Virus record (IMG/VR): IMGVR_UViG_3300046318_000171 | Location: 27,239 to 91,238 of that record | DNA: 64,000 nucleotides | Source: a virus | Direction: 5' to 3' (one strand) | Part shown: positions 3,650 through 57,047 of the stretch, piece after piece | Layout of the letters: each line of letters begins with the position of its first letter | Numbering within the stretch: the first letter of the stretch is position 1 | Program-made: the position numbers and the translations under genes | The notes under the pieces: generated by a model | What the model saw: the letters and a program-made list of their open reading frames with translations, nothing else | Database searches by the model: none | Told to the model about the DNA's origin: nothing

Positions 3650-3953
3650 ACCAACTATTCGCCTAGCCAACGACCTTGAAGCAGAAATCCTGCTTGGGTA
3701 TGTTGCTGAGTTGCTAGATGACGATAACGATGTAGTCACTGGGTTTGCCAGAGTAATGCTACTGAGAACCTATCGTCAACTAACCGAAGCACTAGAACTA
3801 GTAGACATAGGTGAATGCGACAACTGCGGACACCAATACGACACAAGTTCAAGAAATGACAGGTGCGGAGATTGCGGGCTATGCGGTGCGTGTTGCACTA
3901 GCGAGCCTGAGCACCAGCCAACACAAACACTCAAACCGCAATACGAGTACTAA
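3642..3953 (+). CDS. Cys-rich zinc-binding hypothetical protein (103 aa)
   Basis: Uses GTG at 3642, preceded by AGAGGAAGAA and overlapping the upstream gene by eight bases. The N-terminal 55 residues are helical and hydrophobic-leucine rich; the C-terminal part holds seven cysteines: C59-x2-C62, C75-x2-C78, C81-x2-C84-C85. This suggests one or two zinc knuckles. It ends in PQYEY, the same last three residues and the same downstream bases (CGAGTACTAAGGAGAA) as the SSB gene, showing reuse of an end-of-gene/RBS cassette. Confidence 0.7.
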   Translation: MSRPTIRLANDLEAEILLGYVAELLDDDNDVVTGFARVMLLRTYRQLTEALELVDIGECDNCGHQYDTSSRNDRCGDCGLCGACCTSEPEHQPTQTLKPQYEY

Positions 3954-3965
3954 GGAGAACAAATA

Positions 3966-4193
3966 ATGACAGTTGGAAGACTAATCAACCTGTTGCAAAC
4001 CCTGAACGAAGACGAGCCAATCGTGTTTCAGTTCTTGATTGCCGAGCACGTCAATTACTCAGCAGAAGACTTTGAACGTATCGCTGACTTCCTAAAGGAC
4101 AGCGGCCCGTTTGGAGAGGACATAGCACGAGTTCTAAAAGAATGGTGCGGAGAAGCATTTGACAACCTAGACGAGTGGGAAGAGGAGGACTAG
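3966..4193 (+). CDS. Small acidic hypothetical protein (75 aa)
   Basis: Well-placed AAGGAGAACAAATA before the ATG. The N-terminus MTVGRLINLLQTLNEDEPIV resembles the 'MTVKELIEKLKTFPEDMPV' opening seen in many small phage and prophage proteins of unknown function, so the family call is tentative. The rest is acidic, ending in EEED. Confidence 0.72.
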   Translation: MTVGRLINLLQTLNEDEPIVFQFLIAEHVNYSAEDFERIADFLKDSGPFGEDIARVLKEWCGEAFDNLDEWEEED

Positions 4194-47083: not shown

Positions 47084-49413
47084 TATGAGGCTCCCATGCT
47101 GTGGATACGGTTGTCTTCTTCAAGGTACTCTTTAACCCGTTTCGCAAACTTACGTGCTTCAGACTCAGACGCCTGACCAATTGTTAGGTTAATAGTTACA
47201 TTATTTCCGGCTTTTTTGCCGCCAAACACCTTGTCTTTACGGTAATCTTTTGCCACATCCGCAGGAAGAATTGCTTCTCCTTGGTGGACGTTTACTGGGC
47301 CGTCTTGAGTTACGTTGAGCATACCTTCAGAAGCACCACGTACATTTGACAAGTACCTGCTTCCCATGCTGCGGCCAGTAATTTGTCCGTAAGCTCCTCC
47401 GACATTAGAAGTGGCTGAGCTAACTGCGCTTGATGCAGCTGCTGCTGAAGAGTTCACTTGGACAGCTGAAACTTGAGCCCCACCCTTGACTCCAGAAGTA
47501 CCTGCGCTAACTAGGTCAGGAGCTGGTGCCGAACCAGGAGCGAACAATGAGTTTCCGGTCTCTCCCCATGTAGACGCCTGCAAAGCAGAAGCGGTAAATC
47601 CGATTCCTAGGTAAGGTGCAGGGTTAATTCGTGCGCCTCCCTGCCAAAGTTCAAAGTGAAGGTGAGCACCAGAGGTCTGTGTGCCAGTGTTTCCAGAGTA
47701 AGCAATGATGTCACCTTGCTTTACGGTAGAGCCCGCTGGGGCTACTTTACGACTTAGGTGAGCGTACTGAGTAGCAAAGTTTTCTGCGTGGCTAACTCGT
47801 ACTACGTTTCCAAGCGCCCCACTGTCGTTGTACGATACGGTTCCGTCTGCCGCTGCCACAACTGGAGTTCCTTCAGAAACTCCATAGTCAATTCCGTGGT
47901 GCCCTTGGCTTCCCCACAGCCCGCCTTTTTGTCCAAAGTGGGCAGTAATAGCTCCTTTAGTAGGGGCCATAAGTTTCAGCCCACCAGTTCCGTTGCTAGT
48001 ACCTAGGCCAATAGTGCTAGAGTCACCACCTGCACCTACCATGTTTGAGATTCCGGCAACCGCTAGACCACCTAAAGCACCAACACCAGCACCGACCAGA
48101 GTACCAACTCCTGGCCCAAAGAAAGAACCGATTGTTCCACCGAGCATTGCACCAGAAAGTGCAGCACTACCAAAGTCCATAGCGTCCATTGCTTCACCGC
48201 TTTGCCCTTTGGAGTAGGCACTTGCAGCTGACATTCCTAGGCCAATAGTTCCTCCCGCAATACCGAACCCTTTTACTCCTATGTTTTTTGCTACGGAACC
48301 AAAACCCTTTCCACCACCACCAGCAAGTTTATTAATTGCGCTCATGGTTAACATTGAGCCACCGATACTGGCCGCACCAGAAACCAAAGACCCAGCAGCA
48401 GACAATGCCCCACCACCAACTTGACTTCCTGCCAAAGCGGCAGCGTAGGAGTTTAGAGAGCCAAATGTAGCTGCAAGGTCACCAGAAATAGCGTTCAGGG
48501 TGTCTAGGTGGTCTGCAGCAGTTTGTAGTCCGGCAAGGTACTGCGACTCCGCTTTGCTTTGCGCACCAGTAGTCGAAGAGTTAATTTGGTAAGCAGCGTT
48601 AAACGGGTTGTCGTTACCAGCAGCCGCCATCGACGCACGAATCTTGTCCATAGCCTTGGGGTCAGACAAGTCCATGGTGTTGCCCTTAGCACGTTCAATC
48701 ATGTATTGAGAGAACATCGCCTGCTGGTCTTCGCTCAAACCAGACGCTTTAATTGTGGCACCTAGAGCACCACGGTAAAGAGAATCACGAGTTTGTTCTA
48801 CAGTTGCCTTGCCTCGACCAGCGGTGACTCGTTGAGCCAACTGTTCAAAGATTTGTGCTTGAGTAAAAGCCTTACCTGTGCGGGCATCAGAAGTAGATAT
48901 GCCAAAGTTACGCATCATCATGGCTGAAGTAGCGCCCGTGTTCATGCCTGCAATGGCAACCGCAGCTTTATCGGTTTCCATGTTCAGGTACTTAGTGGCG
49001 TTACCTGCACCACGAACCACGTTCATGTACTGGCTACCTGCTGCTGAGCTGAAATTAACGCCCATGTTAGAAAGGTTCTGGGCAACCATGGCGTCTACGC
49101 CAACCGAGCTCAGCCCACCGGCAAGTCCACTAAAGGTGGCTTGAGAAAGACGCTGGCGGTTAATGCCGCCCATCATTCTTGAGGAATTGTAGTACCCACC
49201 AGCACGAGCAACAGTCCCAGCAACATCCGGCATCATACTGAAGCCGCCAGAAACCATGCCGCCAATAGCCCCTAGAGAGCTAGAGAGAATGTTGGCTTTG
49301 CCCATGCCGATAGCAGAGCCGCCAAGGATGCCCATGGTCTTCTCAGCTTGAAGACCGAGTTTCTCCACGGCTTTAGTTAAGCCAGCAATTTCGCTAAGTG
49401 GGTCTTTAGCCAT
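47083..49413 (-). CDS. Tape-measure protein with M23 peptidase domain
   Basis: 776 residues. N-terminal part Ala/Gly-rich with hydrophobic helices (about 330-465, many GxxxG-like repeats) as expected of a tape measure. At about 500-600 a lysostaphin-type M23 domain: GHHGIDYGVSEGTPVVAAAD, then YAHLS and GAHLHFELW give the zinc ligands (H-x3-D and H-x-H). C-terminus basic/acidic helix. It sets tail length and likely degrades peptidoglycan during entry. Rather short for a myovirus tape measure. Confidence 0.88.
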   Translation of the reverse strand: MAKDPLSEIAGLTKAVEKLGLQAEKTMGILGGSAIGMGKANILSSSLGAIGGMVSGGFSMMPDVAGTVARAGGYYNSSRMMGGINRQRLSQATFSGLAGGLSSVGVDAMVAQNLSNMGVNFSSAAGSQYMNVVRGAGNATKYLNMETDKAAVAIAGMNTGATSAMMMRNFGISTSDARTGKAFTQAQIFEQLAQRVTAGRGKATVEQTRDSLYRGALGATIKASGLSEDQQAMFSQYMIERAKGNTMDLSDPKAMDKIRASMAAAGNDNPFNAAYQINSSTTGAQSKAESQYLAGLQTAADHLDTLNAISGDLAATFGSLNSYAAALAGSQVGGGALSAAGSLVSGAASIGGSMLTMSAINKLAGGGGKGFGSVAKNIGVKGFGIAGGTIGLGMSAASAYSKGQSGEAMDAMDFGSAALSGAMLGGTIGSFFGPGVGTLVGAGVGALGGLAVAGISNMVGAGGDSSTIGLGTSNGTGGLKLMAPTKGAITAHFGQKGGLWGSQGHHGIDYGVSEGTPVVAAADGTVSYNDSGALGNVVRVSHAENFATQYAHLSRKVAPAGSTVKQGDIIAYSGNTGTQTSGAHLHFELWQGGARINPAPYLGIGFTASALQASTWGETGNSLFAPGSAPAPDLVSAGTSGVKGGAQVSAVQVNSSAAAASSAVSSATSNVGGAYGQITGRSMGSRYLSNVRGASEGMLNVTQDGPVNVHQGEAILPADVAKDYRKDKVFGGKKAGNNVTINLTIGQASESEARKFAKRVKEYLEEDNRIHSMGAS

Positions 49414-49422
49414 GACACATCC

Positions 49423-49572
49423 TTAAATCTTTCCAAACTCCCTAGCCATCTCTAGCCAGTTAGTACGTTCTCTTGGGCTCAACTGCTTGATTTCTTCAAG
49501 CGGCCACCCGTGTAGCTCAGCGATTAAATGCCATTCTCTAAAAAGAGAGTTGTAATTTAAAACACTAGAATT
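49423..49572 (-). CDS. Frameshift extension of tail assembly chaperone (+1 frame)
   Basis: No start codon opens this frame, yet it encodes a coherent 49-residue sequence from 49572 down: LFREWHLIAELHGWPLEEIK then LSPRERTNWLEMAREFGKI, resembling the C-terminal part of T4 gp26-like and related tail assembly chaperones. It continues from the upstream gene if the ribosome slips +1 at TTT-C (49576-49573), just before the 0-frame stop (49567-49565). Only two tape-measure-adjacent genes use such overlap in most phages, so a programmed +1 shift is the best reading. Confidence 0.65.
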   Translation of the reverse strand, partial: NSSVLNYNSLFREWHLIAELHGWPLEEIKQLSPRERTNWLEMAREFGKI

Positions 49573-50380
49573 GAAACAAAGCTCCGAGAGTAATCGGAAC
49601 CACTACCTTTCCACCACAATCAGGGCAGTCAATAGTTACATCGTCAAACTGTGGGCCCGGGGCACGCTTAGATAGTTCTTCACCAATCTTGCGGCGGTCC
49701 ATGATGCCCAAGTTCTGAATCTGAGTCTTGCTGATGACAGGGCTTCCATCAATCTCCAAGACAGTCTGTTCAAGAAGAATGGTCTGAAGTTCAGCCATGG
49801 TCTTGTCAGTATTAGCCGTAATTTCCTTCTGAGTGTACCCAGTAGGAAGCTGCACTAGGAACTCTTTGTCTTTGCCAAACACTGTAAAGCGTCGGTCAGT
49901 CACTGGGTCTACAAGAACCTTTGACTTGATGTCAGTGTCGACATCTACCTCGACTTCTTTGCTGTCGTTGCAACCAGAGCACCAACAAATAAGCGTGGCG
50001 TGAGGCCCAAACGTTGCTTTGTAAATCCCAACAAGAAGAGCGTCACGGTCACCCGCTAGCATCTTGTCCAAGATTTCTTCAGTAGCCTTTTCTTTACCTA
50101 CTGAAACTACTCCACGGTTCAAGATGGTAGGGAAAGCTTTGCTAAGGCTAGACGCCTTAGTGATTACTTCTTCGTCCCTACCTGTTAGCTCTCGAACCTC
50201 TGCGGTCTTGACGACCTCCCCAGCGGAACTTACGTAGCCGCCAGGGAGAGTCACCAAGGTTTCCGAAGGAGGAGTGATAGCAGCTGGTTGAACGGTTGTT
50301 TCTGGTTCAGCAGTTGCTTGTGCAATCAAATTGTTTGCCATCGCAGGGTTTACCGCTGCGTTTAGAGAATTTGTAGTCAT
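49565..50380 (-). CDS. Tail assembly chaperone (0-frame product)
   Basis: 271 residues between tail tube and tape measure, the usual chaperone position. N-terminal Ala/Pro/Thr-rich, then EVRELTGRDEEVITKASS, and KATFGPHATLICWCSGCNDS plus DCPDCGGKVVVPITLGALF; the paired CxxC motifs and 'LTGRDEE' opening are as in T4 gp26-like baseplate-hub/chaperone proteins. It stops at TAG after FQF; a +1 slip would add 49 residues (49423-49572). Confidence 0.78.
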   Translation of the reverse strand: MTTNSLNAAVNPAMANNLIAQATAEPETTVQPAAITPPSETLVTLPGGYVSSAGEVVKTAEVRELTGRDEEVITKASSLSKAFPTILNRGVVSVGKEKATEEILDKMLAGDRDALLVGIYKATFGPHATLICWCSGCNDSKEVEVDVDTDIKSKVLVDPVTDRRFTVFGKDKEFLVQLPTGYTQKEITANTDKTMAELQTILLEQTVLEIDGSPVISKTQIQNLGIMDRRKIGEELSKRAPGPQFDDVTIDCPDCGGKVVVPITLGALFQF

Positions 50381-52576: not shown

Positions 52577-53224
52577 TTATATTGCGGTAGTAGTAAACGT
52601 TCCTGAACCAATAAAGTCAGGGTCTCCTGGCCTTCCGCCAGCATCTGTGGCGTTAGGTTCGTCTAGGTGTACTTCTTGTACCTTGTATAGCGTACGCAGG
52701 GTACCTTGAGAGACCTCGCTAGAGACTCGTACAGTAATAGCGTTTATGAATAGGCGCTTTGCCTGTTCAGTGGCGTCTCGTTTTGAGACACCCATGACAT
52801 CCATGCGTCGGACAGTTCCATCGTCCAACTTTAGGATGCCAAATCTTTGAGGTAGTTTTTGAAAGTTAATCTGAGTAAGTAGCTCACGGTCGTGGCGTGG
52901 GTGACGGCTGTACACCGTTACTTGGTAGTCAATGTTTACCGGAATAGGAATGTCAACTTCAAATCGCTGGTCCGCAGTCAAGCCATCCGGAGACAAATAG
53001 TCTTTGCCGGTCCATCCACGCATTTCACGCTCAGGGTCACGCATGATGTCAATCATGTCAATAGTGACGTAAGGGTAAAGCTGTGGGGTCAACTCTTGGT
53101 CAGGCTGACCAAAGTACACACGAACAGCACGGTCTGTGTCTTGACCGTCAGCCTTTTGGTCGTGCACAACCATGCCTAGAAGTGCGTCACGAAGAGCTTT
53201 GTCTTCTGATAGAAGAAAGGTCAC
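52577..53224 (-). CDS. Tail terminator / tail completion protein (tentative)
   Basis: 215 residues directly before sheath. RVYFGQPDQELTPQLYPYVT, IDMIDIMRDPEREMRGW and FEVDIPIPVNIDYQVTVYSR fit proteins capping the tail tube in contractile phages (gpU/gp15-like). No precise homologue can be named from sequence alone. Its start overlaps the end of the next upstream gene (ATGA-type). Confidence 0.6.
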   Translation of the reverse strand: MTFLLSEDKALRDALLGMVVHDQKADGQDTDRAVRVYFGQPDQELTPQLYPYVTIDMIDIMRDPEREMRGWTGKDYLSPDGLTADQRFEVDIPIPVNIDYQVTVYSRHPRHDRELLTQINFQKLPQRFGILKLDDGTVRRMDVMGVSKRDATEQAKRLFINAITVRVSSEVSQGTLRTLYKVQEVHLDEPNATDAGGRPGDPDFIGSGTFTTTAI

Positions 53225-53532
53225 TTCTTACCTCCCATGTGCTTGCCAAGACTCTCTACAAACTTAGAGCCTGCACCCGCAGGGTTGTTGTTGTACTTGC
53301 GGATAGTAGCAGTTGGGCGCTTAGACTCGTTGCCAAACTCGTGGGTAAGGGCGTCGCCCATGTACTTGTCGTGAACGTACACGTTGAACTTATTGTCGTG
53401 AAAACGCACGTGGAGGTTGTCTACAACCTTTTGGTCCCAGCCATGCGAAATGGCGCTCTTACGAATCTCACCTTCCATAAACTGGGCGGTGTCGTGAGCG
53501 GCGCTGTGAAGGTTATTAAGTATGCTTCTCAA
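53221..53532 (-). CDS. Neck / head-tail connector protein (tentative)
   Basis: 103 residues, apparent TTG start overlapping the upstream TGA (TTGA). NLHSAAHDTAQFMEGEIRKS, VHDKYMGDALTHEFGNESKR and a basic Gly-rich tail fit HK97-gp10-like tail-joining proteins ('...YA..HEFG...RP'). Placement between neck and sheath genes supports this. Confidence 0.6.
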   Translation of the reverse strand: MRSILNNLHSAAHDTAQFMEGEIRKSAISHGWDQKVVDNLHVRFHDNKFNVYVHDKYMGDALTHEFGNESKRPTATIRKYNNNPAGAGSKFVESLGKHMGGKK

Positions 53533-53723
53533 GGCTTCTTACCTGAATGGGATTTTGGCTGCTGGAATGTGTTCCGCACATAGCCTGAGACTAGTTGCCC
53601 AAACATCGCTTCCTGGCGGTTATTAGGGCGGTAGCCCCCAACACCACGAAGAAACTCTTCCTTTTCTTGGAACACGAGGTAGTCGTTAACTCGTTTCCAC
53701 CAAGGGTTGAAGTTGGAACTCAT
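53529..53723 (-). CDS. Small neck-region protein (64 aa)
   Basis: Start at 53723 (MSSNFNPWWKRVNDYL) after AAAAGGATTTTGCTG; a longer version from 53774 lacks a ribosome-binding site. Aromatic/basic N-terminus, C-terminus QQPKSHSGKKP. Probably structural by position. Unrecognised. Confidence 0.6.
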   Translation of the reverse strand: MSSNFNPWWKRVNDYLVFQEKEEFLRGVGGYRPNNRQEAMFGQLVSGYVRNTFQQPKSHSGKKP

Positions 53724-53828
53724 CAGCAAAATCCTTTTCAGGTGCAAGCTACATACGTAGAGGGAATCCCGCACGGAATTCCATACCTTAAGGATAAGGA
53801 TTATTGGAGAGGATTAAACGCTAAATGT

Positions 53829-54179
53829 CTACTTCTTTAAGTAGTCGTTGTTCTGGTGCGTCTTCAGAGAGTGGCAGTTATGGCACAAAGTCTGGTAATT
53901 AGACGGGTCGTTGTTCTTCTTATCGCCATCAATGTGGTCCACGCAAAGCTGGACTGAGTGTTCTGGGATGAAGCCGCACCACTCGCAAAGCTCCCCTTTA
54001 TGGAACACCCAAGGGCGCTCGGTGGCTTTCTGGCTAGTCTTAAAAGCGTGCTTACAGCGCCAGTAGGGGGTTCCGTCAGGCTTTACATTGCCGCTAGGGC
54101 GTAGGGCTACCTGCAATCCACAAAGGGTACAGTCCCCAATCATAGCCTCTGGGTCAACGTTGGTAATCTTATGGCGCAT
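53829..54179 (-). CDS. HNH endonuclease
   Basis: 116 residues. C17-x2-C20 zinc pair; then LCEWCGFIPEHSVQLCVDHI, DGDKKNNDPSNYQTLCHNCH: the HNH motif with paired CxxC. Resembles free-standing homing-type phage endonucleases. Read-through from upstream is blocked by the terminator at 54194-54222 and 105 bases separate it from the neck genes, so it looks inserted. ATG at 54179. Confidence 0.88.
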   Translation of the reverse strand: MRHKITNVDPEAMIGDCTLCGLQVALRPSGNVKPDGTPYWRCKHAFKTSQKATERPWVFHKGELCEWCGFIPEHSVQLCVDHIDGDKKNNDPSNYQTLCHNCHSLKTHQNNDYLKK

Positions 54180-54193
54180 GGGTACAGGGTAGC

Positions 54194-54222
54194 AAAAGAG
54201 GCCCCTGTTGCCAAGGGCCTCT
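54194..54222 (-). terminator. Rho-independent terminator
   Basis: On the minus strand AGAGGCCC, a 10-base loop, GGGCCTCT, then TTTTGC. It follows the stop of the 54238-54552 gene by 15 bases and separates the small-basic-protein cluster from the HNH gene. Confidence 0.8.
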
Positions 54223-54237
54223 GATGTTTGTGTTGGA

Positions 54238-54552
54238 TTACTTCTTTTTAGACTTGCAGTGTGCGCATTTTCCGCATGAGCACTTCTTGGCTTCACGCTT
54301 GTTTTCAGCCTTCTCGCCCTTCTTGCCTTCAGCCTTTTCGTGAGCAGAGTGCTTCTTGATGCCCTTGATAATCTTGGCGTCAATCTTCTTGTCTTCAGCC
54401 ATGGTCTTAGGCTTCTTCTTGTCGCCGTGCTCTTTGTCCTTCTTCTCGAACTCACGCTTCTCAGCAGGAGTCAAGCCCTTGGTCATTTTGGCGTCTTTTT
54501 TCTTGTCTTTTTCCTCGGTGTACTTACCTTTTAGGAATGCTGGCTTAGCCAT
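54238..54552 (-). CDS. Lys/Glu-rich protein with Cys cluster (104 aa)
   Basis: Highly charged sequence (KDKKKDAKMTKGLTPAEKRE; HGDKKKPKTMAEDKK) ending in CSCGKCAHCKSKKK, a compact four-Cys cluster. Similar 'CxCGK' ends occur in the tiny open frame at 54991-55050. Not a known domain; likely DNA- or metal-binding by composition. Confidence 0.68.
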   Translation of the reverse strand: MAKPAFLKGKYTEEKDKKKDAKMTKGLTPAEKREFEKKDKEHGDKKKPKTMAEDKKIDAKIIKGIKKHSAHEKAEGKKGEKAENKREAKKCSCGKCAHCKSKKK

Positions 54553-54555
54553 TGT

Positions 54556-54810
54556 TTATCTGCCTGTCTTTGGTCGGTAGTTCTTTGCTCGCCTGCTTGT
54601 GTCTTTAGGGTCTGCATGCGGGTTCATTACTGGAGGAGCACCCTTGATGCGTGCTTTAAGGTCGGTGACCTCTGCCTTGACCTTGCGACCCAAAGTGGTC
54701 TGACCAAGAGTCTTTTTTGCTGGCTTAGCGACTGGTTTAGCAGCTGGCTTGGCGGCAGGCTTAGCTGCTGGCTTCTTTAGATTAACTGGTTTCTTCAAAT
54801 TAACAGCCAT
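54556..54810 (-). CDS. Histone H1-like AKP-repeat protein (84 aa)
   Basis: N-terminal region made of repeats of KKPAxKPAAKP (residues 6-35), like the C-terminal tails of H1-like bacterial nucleoid proteins, then VKAEVTDLKARIKG and a Pro/Arg-rich tail. Could bind and compact DNA. Ribosome-binding site inside the upstream gene (TAATG coupling). Confidence 0.68.
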   Translation of the reverse strand: MAVNLKKPVNLKKPAAKPAAKPAAKPVAKPAKKTLGQTTLGRKVKAEVTDLKARIKGAPPVMNPHADPKDTSRRAKNYRPKTGR

Positions 54811-55001
54811 TATTTGCCTCTCTTAATTCCGCTGTACTTCTTACCTTTAGCAACCTTTTTGCCCATGCCTGATTCGGCAGAGCTTCCCTTAGGAGCAGGC
54901 TTAGGAGCGTACTTCCCTATACCCTCTTTAGCTAATCCCTCGTCTATTTTCTTTTTTACCGCTGCGTTTGCCAGTCGGGTCGGTACTTTTTTAATAGCCA
55001 T
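54810..55001 (-). CDS. Small basic protein (63 aa)
   Basis: Basic throughout: KKVPTRLANAAVKKKIDEGL and GKKVAKGKKYSGIKRGK, with a Pro/Ser turn. Preceded by GAAGGAGCCAACT. One of a set of tiny basic proteins here. Function unknown. Confidence 0.65.
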   Translation of the reverse strand: MAIKKVPTRLANAAVKKKIDEGLAKEGIGKYAPKPAPKGSSAESGMGKKVAKGKKYSGIKRGK

Positions 55002-55050
55002 TAGTTGGCTCCTTCTGTTCTTTACCGCATGTGCAGTTTCCGTTACACAT
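54991..55050 (-). CDS. Possible 19-residue Cys-rich peptide
   Basis: ATG at 55050 opens MCNGNCTCGKEQKEPTNGY, four bases after the upstream stop and overlapping the next start. The CxCGK motif is echoed in 54238-54552, and the ribosome-binding site of the next gene lies inside. Too short for certainty and no strong Shine-Dalgarno of its own. Confidence 0.3.
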   Translation of the reverse strand: MCNGNCTCGKEQKEPTNGY

Positions 55051-55054
55051 TACT

Positions 55055-55285
55055 TTACCACTTTCTGTTCTCTTTGAGTTGCTTCTCAGCAAGTCGAAGC
55101 TTGTCTAACTTAGCCTGAGAACTAGCAATAGCCCCTTCATTGCCACTTCCCTTGGCCTTAAGCAAGTCTTGTTCAGCAGACTGACGCTTACGCTTGACCG
55201 CCATAGGGGCAGTGATTCTGCGCCACCCCTCGCCCTTAGGGAGCAAGGTGTCAGGCGATGTCTTAATCCTAGTGACTCTAGCCAT
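55055..55285 (-). CDS. Basic hypothetical protein (76 aa)
   Basis: RITAPMAVKRKRQSAEQDLL followed by a helix SQAKLDKLRLAEKQLKEN, a charged coiled-coil. One-base overlap upstream. Function unknown. Confidence 0.66.
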   Translation of the reverse strand: MARVTRIKTSPDTLLPKGEGWRRITAPMAVKRKRQSAEQDLLKAKGSGNEGAIASSQAKLDKLRLAEKQLKENRKW

Positions 55286-55578
55286 TACTTACCCGCCCTA
55301 CGCTTGTTTTCTTTGCCAACATTTTTCTTGTGGCTCATAGCCCGAAGGTTGCTCTTAGAGTCGTTCTTCTTGTTGTTGTCTTTGTGGTCTACGTCAGTGT
55401 CCTTAGACAACTTGCGGCCGGTGTGCTGCTCGTAGTCTTCACGAGCCTTGTTCTTAGACTCAGTACGCCAACCGTCCTTAGTCTTAACTTTCCAGACGTA
55501 AATCTCACGGCCACCGTTTTGCTTAGAGCCCTTATACGGGCCAAACTTCTTACGGGTACCAATCTTTACTTCAGCCAT
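55285..55578 (-). CDS. HNH-like endonuclease without zinc cysteines (97 aa)
   Basis: A strand pair (REIYVWKVKTKDGWRT), then KLSKDTDVDHKDNNKKNDSK and SNLRAMSHKKNVGKENKRR, a His-Asn-His/Lys type HNH motif ('VDH.DNNK.ND...NL..'). It lacks CxxC pairs seen in many HNH proteins, and may be a short homing endonuclease or a domesticated version. One-base overlaps on both sides, unlike a recent insertion. Confidence 0.72.
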   Translation of the reverse strand: MAEVKIGTRKKFGPYKGSKQNGGREIYVWKVKTKDGWRTESKNKAREDYEQHTGRKLSKDTDVDHKDNNKKNDSKSNLRAMSHKKNVGKENKRRAGK

Positions 55579-55814
55579 TAGCGGTGCCTCGCTGCCTTTT
55601 CTGCAATCTTTTTAGGTTGTGGGACAAACTGCTTGCCCTTTTTATTTCCTTTAGCTTTAGCCCTGTTAGTAGCGGCCTTCTCTGCAGGCGTCAGGTCTTT
55701 CCAAGCTTCCTTAGGAAGGTAGCGCTTTTTGCCCTTAGACGGCTTTCCGTCTGAGGTTCCCCACTCTTCCTTAGTCCACTTATCCAGGGACTTCTGCGAT
55801 TTTGCTTTAGGCAT
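55578..55814 (-). CDS. Basic hypothetical protein (78 aa)
   Basis: LDKWTKEEWGTSDGKPSKGK then RYLPKEAWKDLTPAEKAATN, then a basic Lys/Arg tail. The segment 'W..EEW.T.DGK.S.G..RYLP' is a recurring motif in small phage proteins from aquatic environments, function unknown. One-base overlap with its neighbours. Confidence 0.7.
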   Translation of the reverse strand: MPKAKSQKSLDKWTKEEWGTSDGKPSKGKKRYLPKEAWKDLTPAEKAATNRAKAKGNKKGKQFVPQPKKIAEKAARHR

Positions 55815-56005
55815 TAGTTCTTGTAGCCTCCGCCAGCCTTCTTGTATTCAGAAGCCAAAAGTTGGGCCTTACGGGCAGACCACTCGCCTGGGTCTCCACC
55901 CTTGGTTCCAGCCTTAATCTTGTTAAACAACTGCTTACGCAGACCAGGCTTGGTGTAGTTACCTGCCTCGTTTACCTTAGACTTTGATTTTTTAGCGGCA
56001 GGCAT
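55814..56005 (-). CDS. Small DUF5872-like basic protein (63 aa)
   Basis: NYTKPGLRKQLFNKIKAGTK, GGDPGEWSARKAQLLASEYK and KAGGGYKN match the short DUF5872-type motif ('KP.LR...K...GGKPGQWSARKAQ.L...Y...GGGY') found in many phage and giant-virus proteins. ATG at 56005 (TAATG) is preferred to the GTG two codons upstream. Function unknown. Confidence 0.75.
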   Translation of the reverse strand: MPAAKKSKSKVNEAGNYTKPGLRKQLFNKIKAGTKGGDPGEWSARKAQLLASEYKKAGGGYKN

Positions 56006-56313
56006 TACCACTTCACCTTGTCAGCCCAGTAAGCTGCTGACATCTTTCCCTTAGCAATGTTCTTGGCGTGACGTGCCTTGAATGACTCACGGCGCTTACG
56101 ATAAGACTCAGACTCACCTTCTTTTTTAGGGGAGCCCTTAACGCCTTGCTGACCAAAACGAATGGTCTTAATTTGGTCGCCTTCTTTAGCCACAACCACG
56201 TGCGACTTCTTCGCTCCTGGAGTAGCCTTAGGCTTGTTGTAGCCCGTCACACCCGCACGAGCTAGACGTGGGTCCTTAGCCTTACCGTGGTGCTTCTTCT
56301 TGTGTTCAGACAT
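56005..56313 (-). CDS. DUF6321-like basic protein (102 aa)
   Basis: AKEGDQIKTIRFGQQGVKGS, SYRKRRESFKARHAKNIAKG and KMSAAYWADKVKW form a strongly conserved phage motif that I associate with DUF6321; role unknown. Lys/Arg-rich N-terminus. The AARHAKNI...AAYW pattern is often found near capsid or neck genes. Coupled to the next gene by overlapping TAATG. Confidence 0.75.
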   Translation of the reverse strand: MSEHKKKHHGKAKDPRLARAGVTGYNKPKATPGAKKSHVVVAKEGDQIKTIRFGQQGVKGSPKKEGESESYRKRRESFKARHAKNIAKGKMSAAYWADKVKW

Positions 56314-56486
56314 TACTTTCCCTTTCCAGGAGTTTCAATTTTTCTAGGACGCTTCATAGCAGGCTGGCGGGCAGGGTTCTTAGGAACAGCGCCTTTGTGA
56401 ACCTTGTCATTGACCTTCTTAGGTCCACGACCAATGTGGTCTTTAGGATTCTTTTCGTTTGTTACGGCTTTGTGTTCTCTTGCCAT
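56313..56486 (-). CDS. Small basic Lys/Pro-rich protein (57 aa)
   Basis: Disordered, basic: VTNEKNPKDHIGRGPKKVND and KNPARQPAMKRPRKIETP. ATG at 56486 follows AAGGTGAAGA. It overlaps the upstream gene by 44 bases in another frame. Function unknown. Confidence 0.62.
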   Translation of the reverse strand: MAREHKAVTNEKNPKDHIGRGPKKVNDKVHKGAVPKNPARQPAMKRPRKIETPGKGK

Positions 56487-56598
56487 TCTTCACCTTCTTG
56501 GGTAGTTTTCCTTTAGGAGTATGGTCTTCCCACTCCTTGGCCATCCCTGGATTATTAGCATACATCCAGGCACGTTGGGCTTGTGACTTAAACGGCAT
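56443..56598 (-). CDS. Small conserved phage protein, 'FKSQAQR..MY' family (51 aa)
   Basis: MPFKSQAQRAWMYANNPGMA, then KEWEDHTPKGKLPKK: a short motif widely found in phages as a stand-alone protein or tail extension, function unknown. Basic C-terminus KNGKRTQSRNKRKES is encoded in the same bases as the start of the next gene. Coupled TAATG with the gene upstream. Confidence 0.72.
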   Translation of the reverse strand: MPFKSQAQRAWMYANNPGMAKEWEDHTPKGKLPKKVKNGKRTQSRNKRKES

Positions 56599-57047
56599 TA
56601 GTCGTACCAAATGCTGTTGCCTGTAAGAATCCAGTCATTAGTAGCAATCTTAATCAGGCGGGTAACGCACGTTCCTGTAGAGCCCATGTAGTTGGTGCTT
56701 GTGCCATTTCCTTCGCCGTAAACATTAGAGCGAGTCTCAGAGGCGTCATGGGTTTGTTCACGCATCATAATGGTTGCGTCTATAGTCACAAAGGTAATCA
56801 CTGTACCAATAGGAAACGCCACAGCAGCGTTAGCAGGTACAACAAAATCCTGGTTATAGTTATTCTCGTCTTTAGTTACAACGATAAAAGTTCCCGCATC
56901 AGCCAAGGTAAGGGCGATGTCCGTGCTTGTTGAAACAACGGGGTTTCTAGTGCTTGGCTTGAGGGTGTTGGTGTCTAGGTAATCCAAAGCAGTGTTGAGG
57001 ACGTCGCCCCAGCCGGTCTGTCCATTGGTAGGTTTTACAAGTGCCAT
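56598..57047 (-). CDS. Virion-like protein (149 aa)
   Basis: Beginning MALVKPTNGQTGWGDVLNTA is typical of phage proteins that sit at fibre or tail-wrapping surfaces ('KPT.G...WG...N'), followed by beta-strand-rich sequence (GTFIVVTKDENNYNQDFVVP; IATNDWILTGNSIWY). Likely a minor structural or fibre-associated protein. AGGAGCGTAAGA-like ribosome-binding site. Confidence 0.65.
   Translation of the reverse strand: MALVKPTNGQTGWGDVLNTALDYLDTNTLKPSTRNPVVSTSTDIALTLADAGTFIVVTKDENNYNQDFVVPANAAVAFPIGTVITFVTIDATIMMREQTHDASETRSNVYGEGNGTSTNYMGSTGTCVTRLIKIATNDWILTGNSIWYD

Follow-up and report, generated by a model that had tools for sequence, protein, structure and literature searches.

A probable programmed +1 frameshift at a conserved UUU_C site in the PF12322 tail assembly chaperone gene of contractile-tailed phages

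The tail assembly chaperone frameshift of the lambda type, which yields the proteins G and GT, was reportedly described by Xu, Hendrix and Duda in 2004. G/GT frameshifts are widespread, and the extension of lambda GT is thought to connect the tape measure protein with the tail-tube subunits.

Shifts in the forward direction have been inferred for the tail chaperone of HSTV-2 (PMC5009743) and for a minority of actinophages, with 350 annotated forward cases in PRFect (PMC10885494). Listeria phage PSA undergoes +1 shifts at proline CCC codons in its capsid and tail-shaft genes (PMC5009743). A slip at UUU_C was proven for the influenza A PA-X site, UCC_UUU_CGU (PMC3498833), and +1 shifting at UUU_CGN was proposed for amalgaviruses (PMC5052127). 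Firth et al. considered that a class of sites combining UUU_C with restricted A- and E-site codons might be predicted (PMC3498833). On 70S ribosomes, stems located upstream of and adjoining the E site were found to raise +1 and to attenuate -1 shifts (PMC6321510).

Here we describe a phage locus that, judged by comparison with its relatives, very probably represents a conserved programmed +1 frameshift in the PF12322 tail chaperone of contractile-tailed phages. No report of a phage UUU_C site with a conserved 5' hairpin was found in the open-access literature.

Gene layout and the +1-frame extension

The window, i.e., the whole stretch of DNA analyzed, comprises 64,000 nucleotides of a 91 kb virus record. 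The chaperone gene lies between the tube and tape measure genes (Table 1), and records of the BRock type have the same order. Its 3' end reads GGA GCT TTG TTT CAA TTC TAG, with the TTT at 49576-49574 and the following C at 49573 on the minus strand. Skipping of this C results in a product reading ...GALF-NSSV..., with 49 codons leading to a TAA at 49425-49423. The conceptual +1 product of the locus is ...GALF-NSSVLNYNSLFREWHLIAELHGWPLEEIKQLSPRERTNWLEMAREFGKI, and the predicted transframe peptide for the window sequence is ...GALF-NSSVLNYNSLFR. The +1 frame opens just past an upstream TAG and stays open across the 0-frame stop as far as the TAA, which is separated by 9 bases from the tape measure ATG at 49413. 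Within the extension, the first ATG, GTG or TTG is a TTG at codon 31 and the next is an ATG at codon 42. Both are too late for the domain, and the extension is therefore effectively without a start codon. A sequence-only reading of this DNA had proposed a TAG ending the upstream gene, a TTT-C slip ahead of CAA and a 49-codon frame lacking a start; the positions of the stop and of the slip proved correct, and the lack of a start held in effect, given the late TTG.

Table 1. Features of the tail chaperone locus and its neighbors in the window
Feature	Position	Strand	Basis or remark
Sheath gene	52532-51036	-	Upstream of tube gene
Tail tube gene	51017-50397	-	PF06841
0-frame tail assembly chaperone, G-like short form, 271 aa (putative)	50380-49565	-	ORF and PF12322
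AGGU, Shine-Dalgarno-like	49608-49605	-	Invariant in 48/48 window-clade representatives
5' RNA hairpin (predicted), 8-bp stem GGUUCCGA / UCGGAGCU, 6-nt loop	49601-49580	-	RNAalifold, covariation
E-site codon TTG	49579-49577	-	YTR in 58/60 representatives
Slip site UUU_C (predicted)	49576-49573	-	TTTC in 99/99 readable relatives
0-frame A-site codon CAA	49573-49571	-	CAR or CGN among relatives
+1-frame extension, T-like, 49 codons plus TAA	49572-49423	-	Three-helix domain, purifying selection
0-frame stop TAG	49567-49565	-	Two sense codons (CAA TTC) after slip codon
Putative tape measure, 776 aa, M23 peptidase domain	49413-47083	-	ORF and domain match

The M23 peptidase domain of the putative tape measure protein occupies residues 504-598. 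A region at 53221-56610 on the minus strand, upstream of the tail module, contains short ORFs rich in lysine; some of these ORFs have HNH-endonuclease-like motifs, and several overlap in different frames.

Read in the +1 frame, the extension shows purifying selection: dN/dS among the closest relatives was 0.06-0.11, and differences by codon position numbered 439/265/727, being highest at the third. Its conserved motif is Y..L..EW..L...Y.GWTL.EIK.LSPRER.NWLEIA. The 0-frame protein and the extension were folded separately, unchanged, and the AF2 model of the extension had a mean pLDDT of 89 with helices at residues 7-21, 25-29 and 33-45. Its top BFVD neighbors included a protein named as a tail assembly chaperone as well as T4-like baseplate proteins of KPV15 and ZZ1, none of them significant, while its profile matches were weak (Phage_TAC_7, E 0.013; Phage_P2_GpE, E 0.1; a gp51-like PHROG).

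Conservation and codon restriction at UUU_C

The chaperone gene contains a single in-frame TTTC. The 48 window ORFs of at least 150 codons were examined for TTTC within the last 6 codons together with a +1 frame that continues beyond the stop for 40 codons or more, and only the chaperone ORF had this combination. The arrangement is well outside what chance would produce. Relatives were collected from phage records (Streptomyces phages BRock, LuckySocke, Alone3, GiJojo and pSt2308), from IMG/VR (the best 80 of more than 500) and from bacterial genomes, giving 99 readable loci including the window itself, 60 of them non-redundant at 95% identity. At all 99 readable loci, TTT CRN was followed by a stop 2-3 codons on, and the +1 frame was open into the same domain. 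Two further genome loci with the extension were found, in a Streptomyces diastatochromogenes chromosome (CTG TTT CGC) and in a metagenome-assembled bacterium (TTG TTT CGC). The S. diastatochromogenes contig holds a related tail cassette with a UUU_CGC site, which suggests that a relative of the BRock group is integrated in that chromosome. TTT was retained there at 66% GC, with long ORFs nearby using 71 TTC versus 14 TTT.

A sequencing or assembly error would also look like a single-base change of frame. The probability that such an error or a decayed gene accounts for the locus is negligible, as the configuration is shared by 99 loci, which come from many assemblies made independently and some of which belong to complete genomes of cultured phages, and selection on the extension counts against decay.

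Two observations are consistent with the extension being a separate small protein made from its own start or by re-initiation: BRock, LuckySocke, Alone3 and GiJojo annotate it as a gene of its own, and the +1 ORF of the huge phage LR756508 contains an ATG. This reading is nevertheless very unlikely. An own start for the extension in homologues, which the sequence-only reading had named as evidence against a shift, was absent from the +1 ORF upstream of the domain in 38 of the 60 non-redundant relatives and had no conserved position in the rest; the annotated starts disagree between records; and separate translation leaves the conserved UUU_C unexplained. The best reading of this architecture, which 99/99 readable relatives share, is that the tail assembly chaperone gene undergoes a programmed +1 shift at UUU_C, as first proposed from the window alone.

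In the record pieces examined, the separate hypothetical genes span 3848-4030 (BRock), 3860-4015 (LuckySocke and Alone3) and 3791-3988 (GiJojo), with inconsistent starts, and the extension is absent from the pSt2308 annotation. If the shift is as proposed, these five Streptomyces phage records require re-annotation, with one frameshifted tail chaperone gene each.

The P-site TTT and the C after it were invariant across the 99 readable relatives, with CAR or CGN as the A-site codon. Whether relatives keep TTTC had been suggested as a check on the window's sequence, and all of them do. On a protein tree, the third base of TTT underwent 0 changes, against 14-31 (mean, 21) at upstream third positions and 31 changes at the A-site codon. 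The sole other unchanged third position on the tree was the G of AGGU at -31. Other conserved Phe columns were mixed, with 46 TTT to 14 TTC and 39 to 10.

The same restriction was evident in codon usage among the 48 window-clade representatives. The slip Phe was TTT in 48:0 versus a background of 189:85, and the E-site Leu was YTR in 46:0 versus 751:544, so that CTT and CTC were never used and the third base was a purine in 46/48. At A-site Arg, CGT was avoided (4:31 versus 211:182) and the rarer CGA, CGC and CGG were taken. Among the 60 representatives, the A-site codon was CGN in 43 and CAR in 17, the window having CAA. At the locus and in its relatives, a UUU in frame precedes a C and the frame continues at +1 downstream; the strict motif UUU_CGN does not describe the 17 CAR sites or the window. 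As far as sequence can tell, the phage site works like UUU_CGN without being strictly that motif.

Two other kinds of shift were considered. A -2 shift, for which phage Mu gpGT is a known natural case (PMC3498833), would yield the identical frame; it is highly improbable here, given that -2 re-pairing of tRNA-Phe is impossible (UUU to UGU) and re-pairing at +1 to UUC is perfect. Only a +1 shift explains the invariant C after TTT, and the UUU_C slip in PA-X was proven to be +1 by mass spectrometry (PMC3498833). An RF2-like shift at the last sense codon (TTC_TAG, CTC_TGA) was rejected, since that codon varies and re-pairs poorly while TTTC is invariant.

A covarying hairpin and an AGGU element upstream of the slip site

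The hairpin and AGGU described below, and the kinship with T4 gp26/gp51, are additions to the sequence-only reading. Going upstream, nearly every codon was constrained from the slip codon back to about 36-37 nt, and codon choice farther out was near neutral. The onset of synonymous constraint at about -36 coincides with, and is apparently explained by, a hairpin, GGUUCCGA-N6-UCGGAACC, that ends beside the E-site codon. RNAalifold predicted the core 6 pairs of the stem unprompted, and the minimum free energy structure of the window sequence holds all 8 stem pairs. The 8-bp stem had a covariation score of 0.373 versus 0.196 (sd 0.015) in shuffled alignments, with 39 compensatory cells (both sides changed) versus 12.8; these shuffles ignore relatedness, which the tree count handles for the slip site and not for the hairpin. 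Covariation peaked at register 0 only, with no sliding register close, and the strongest pair was GC in 18, UA in 12, CG in 7, AU in 6 and GU in 2. The segment from -34 to -1 was unusually stable (mean z, -1.84; 47/60 below -1) compared with an equal-length upstream control (+0.44). When sequences were folded singly, a stem just upstream of the slip site was also predicted in BRock, SP-15, the S. diastatochromogenes contig, LR756508 and Flavobacterium immuto. No 5' hairpin was predicted for Streptococcus phage GXN1 folded in this way, and other distant relatives differ in detail. Downstream of the slip site, excess stability was mild (mean z, -0.9 versus -0.5 in one control) and no consensus pairs indicating a 3' stimulatory structure were found.

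AGGU is located 29-32 nt upstream of the slip site, a few nucleotides ahead of the stem. The codon that supplies its G as third base was GAG or AAG, never GAA or AAA, in the 48 window-clade representatives, and GAGGT was present in 11/12 BRock-clade representatives.

If the frameshift is real, the hairpin might still have another function, as a weak intrinsic terminator or a transcriptional pause before the tape measure gene. A hairpin followed by TTGTTTC gives a terminator-like score, and expression of the tape measure gene might need lowering relative to the tube protein. This alternative is unlikely on several grounds. A terminator would prefer an E-site codon ending in U, contrary to the purine preference found at this third base; the T-run after the hairpin is short and interrupted (TTG/CTG TTT C); and the stem would be covered by ribosomes that read on to the stop 9 nt downstream. 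The covarying stem ends at the E-site codon, the juxtaposition used in the tested design of a +1 stimulator (PMC6321510). By analogy with that design, the phage hairpin is likely to be a stimulator of the +1 shift.

A programmed +1 shift at this site would probably proceed as follows. Normal translation would produce the short protein (G), presumably a chaperone, and ribosomes that shift would, we infer, do so with an efficiency that makes the long protein (GT) the minor product. The tRNA-Phe would re-pair from UUU to UUC, with slow decoding of the 0-frame CAR or CGN codon allowing time for the slip. The hairpin, re-forming right behind the E site, would block backward movement and favor the forward slip, possibly assisted by the AGGU upstream of it. 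The shifted frame would then pass the 0-frame stop and append the 49-residue three-helix domain, which, as in lambda GT, would join the tape measure protein to the tail-tube subunits.

Extrusion of the stem would put AGGU at Shine-Dalgarno distance from the P site, which is offered as a hypothesis only. More broadly, the site could be a natural conserved bacterial element in which a 5' hairpin that refolds co-translationally is the main stimulator of the UUU_C slip and its extrusion sets AGGU at that distance; we advance this combined model tentatively, with the balance somewhat against it. If true, it would amount to a two-part upstream device that differs from the designs of RF2 and PSA and has converged with the UUU_C sites of eukaryotic viruses.

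PF12322 proteins and comparison with known systems

The chaperone gene matched PF12322 (T4_baseplate) with 28.4 bits against a cut-off of 24.5, and BRock scored 33.4. In Foldseek searches of BFVD, the short form matched a T4-like hub assembly protein (E 1.9e-19), SP-15 (7e-12) and gp26 of Aeromonas phage 25 (E 7e-5). Its top PDB match, the HK97 tail assembly chaperone, had prob 0.92 but E 0.54. T4 has two PF12322 genes, encoding gp26 (208 aa) and gp51 (249 aa). The C-terminal tail that gp51 has in addition aligned with the extension by hhalign at a score of 23.3, against at most 15.0 when columns were shuffled 200 times, and in a single comparison the full-length alignment continued through the gp51 tail with E 1.9e-4. 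Among structures, gp51 was one of the top matches of the extension, with E>0.1. The extension HMM gave no significant match to single gp51 or P2 E' sequences. Both gp26 and gp51 are listed as hub assembly chaperones (PMC3004832). According to the part of PMC10885494 that cites Vladimirov, Gautam and Davidson (2022, Virology 566:9-15), they are the short and long tail chaperones of T4. The reading of gp26/gp51 as a split short/long pair agrees with that published work and is not new here.

Overlapping +1 extensions were found in the same slot in more distant family members, namely SP-15, Listeria LIS04, Streptococcus GXN1, Flavobacterium immuto, Microcystis Mel-JY01 and LR756508. A -1 extension, at T_TTT_TTC, was found in Agrobacterium Atu_ph07 and apparently also in LR756511. 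The +1 extensions are unannotated or mis-split in SP-15, LIS04, GXN1, immuto and Mel-JY01. In the record pieces examined, the +1 genes of SP-15 and LIS04 span 1444-2383 and 1480-2439, respectively, and the PF12322 gene of Atu_ph07 spans 1447-2289 and following. A search of viral contigs with SP-15 as the query returned SP-15 alone. PF12322 thus appears to unite +1, -1 and two-gene routes to a short/long chaperone pair, and the evolution of shift direction should be traceable within it.

The T4 pair resembles the present system in belonging to the same protein family and in the C-terminal tail of gp51, which is similar to the frameshift extension. It differs in that the short and long forms come from two genes, without frameshifting. 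With lambda G/GT, the locus shares its place after the tube gene and ahead of the tape measure gene, a single start for both the short and the long form, and a C-terminal extension in another frame that ends beside the tape measure gene. The predicted shift is +1 rather than -1, however; the site is UUU_C rather than of the X_XXY_YYZ type; and a covarying hairpin lies upstream. HSTV-2 and the forward-shifting actinophages likewise have a predicted +1 shift in the tail chaperone gene, but the portions of PMC5009743 and PMC10885494 that deal with these cases describe no shared site, E- or A-site restriction or upstream hairpin.

Listeria PSA, which the sequence-only reading had cited as precedent, turned out to be a poor one. 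Its shifts are also +1 and within the structural cassette of a phage, but they take place at CCC in capsid and tail-shaft genes and not in the tail chaperone, and PSA was rejected as a model for its different site and different genes. A better match is the UUU_C/UUU_CGN class of PA-X and amalgaviruses (PMC3498833, PMC5052127), with which the phage site has in common the UUU_C slip in the P site, CGN codons in the A site and a restricted E-site codon. Those are RNA viruses translated by eukaryotic ribosomes, whereas the phage family adds CAR codons and a 5' hairpin.

The locus would accordingly provide a deeply conserved natural +1 element for bacterial ribosomes, combining a set slip codon, restricted E and A sites and a covarying upstream hairpin. 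The upstream-hairpin model, tested with engineered constructs (PMC6321510), could be examined at a site shaped by evolution, and these phages would realize the UUU_C class predicted by Firth et al. in 2012 (PMC3498833).
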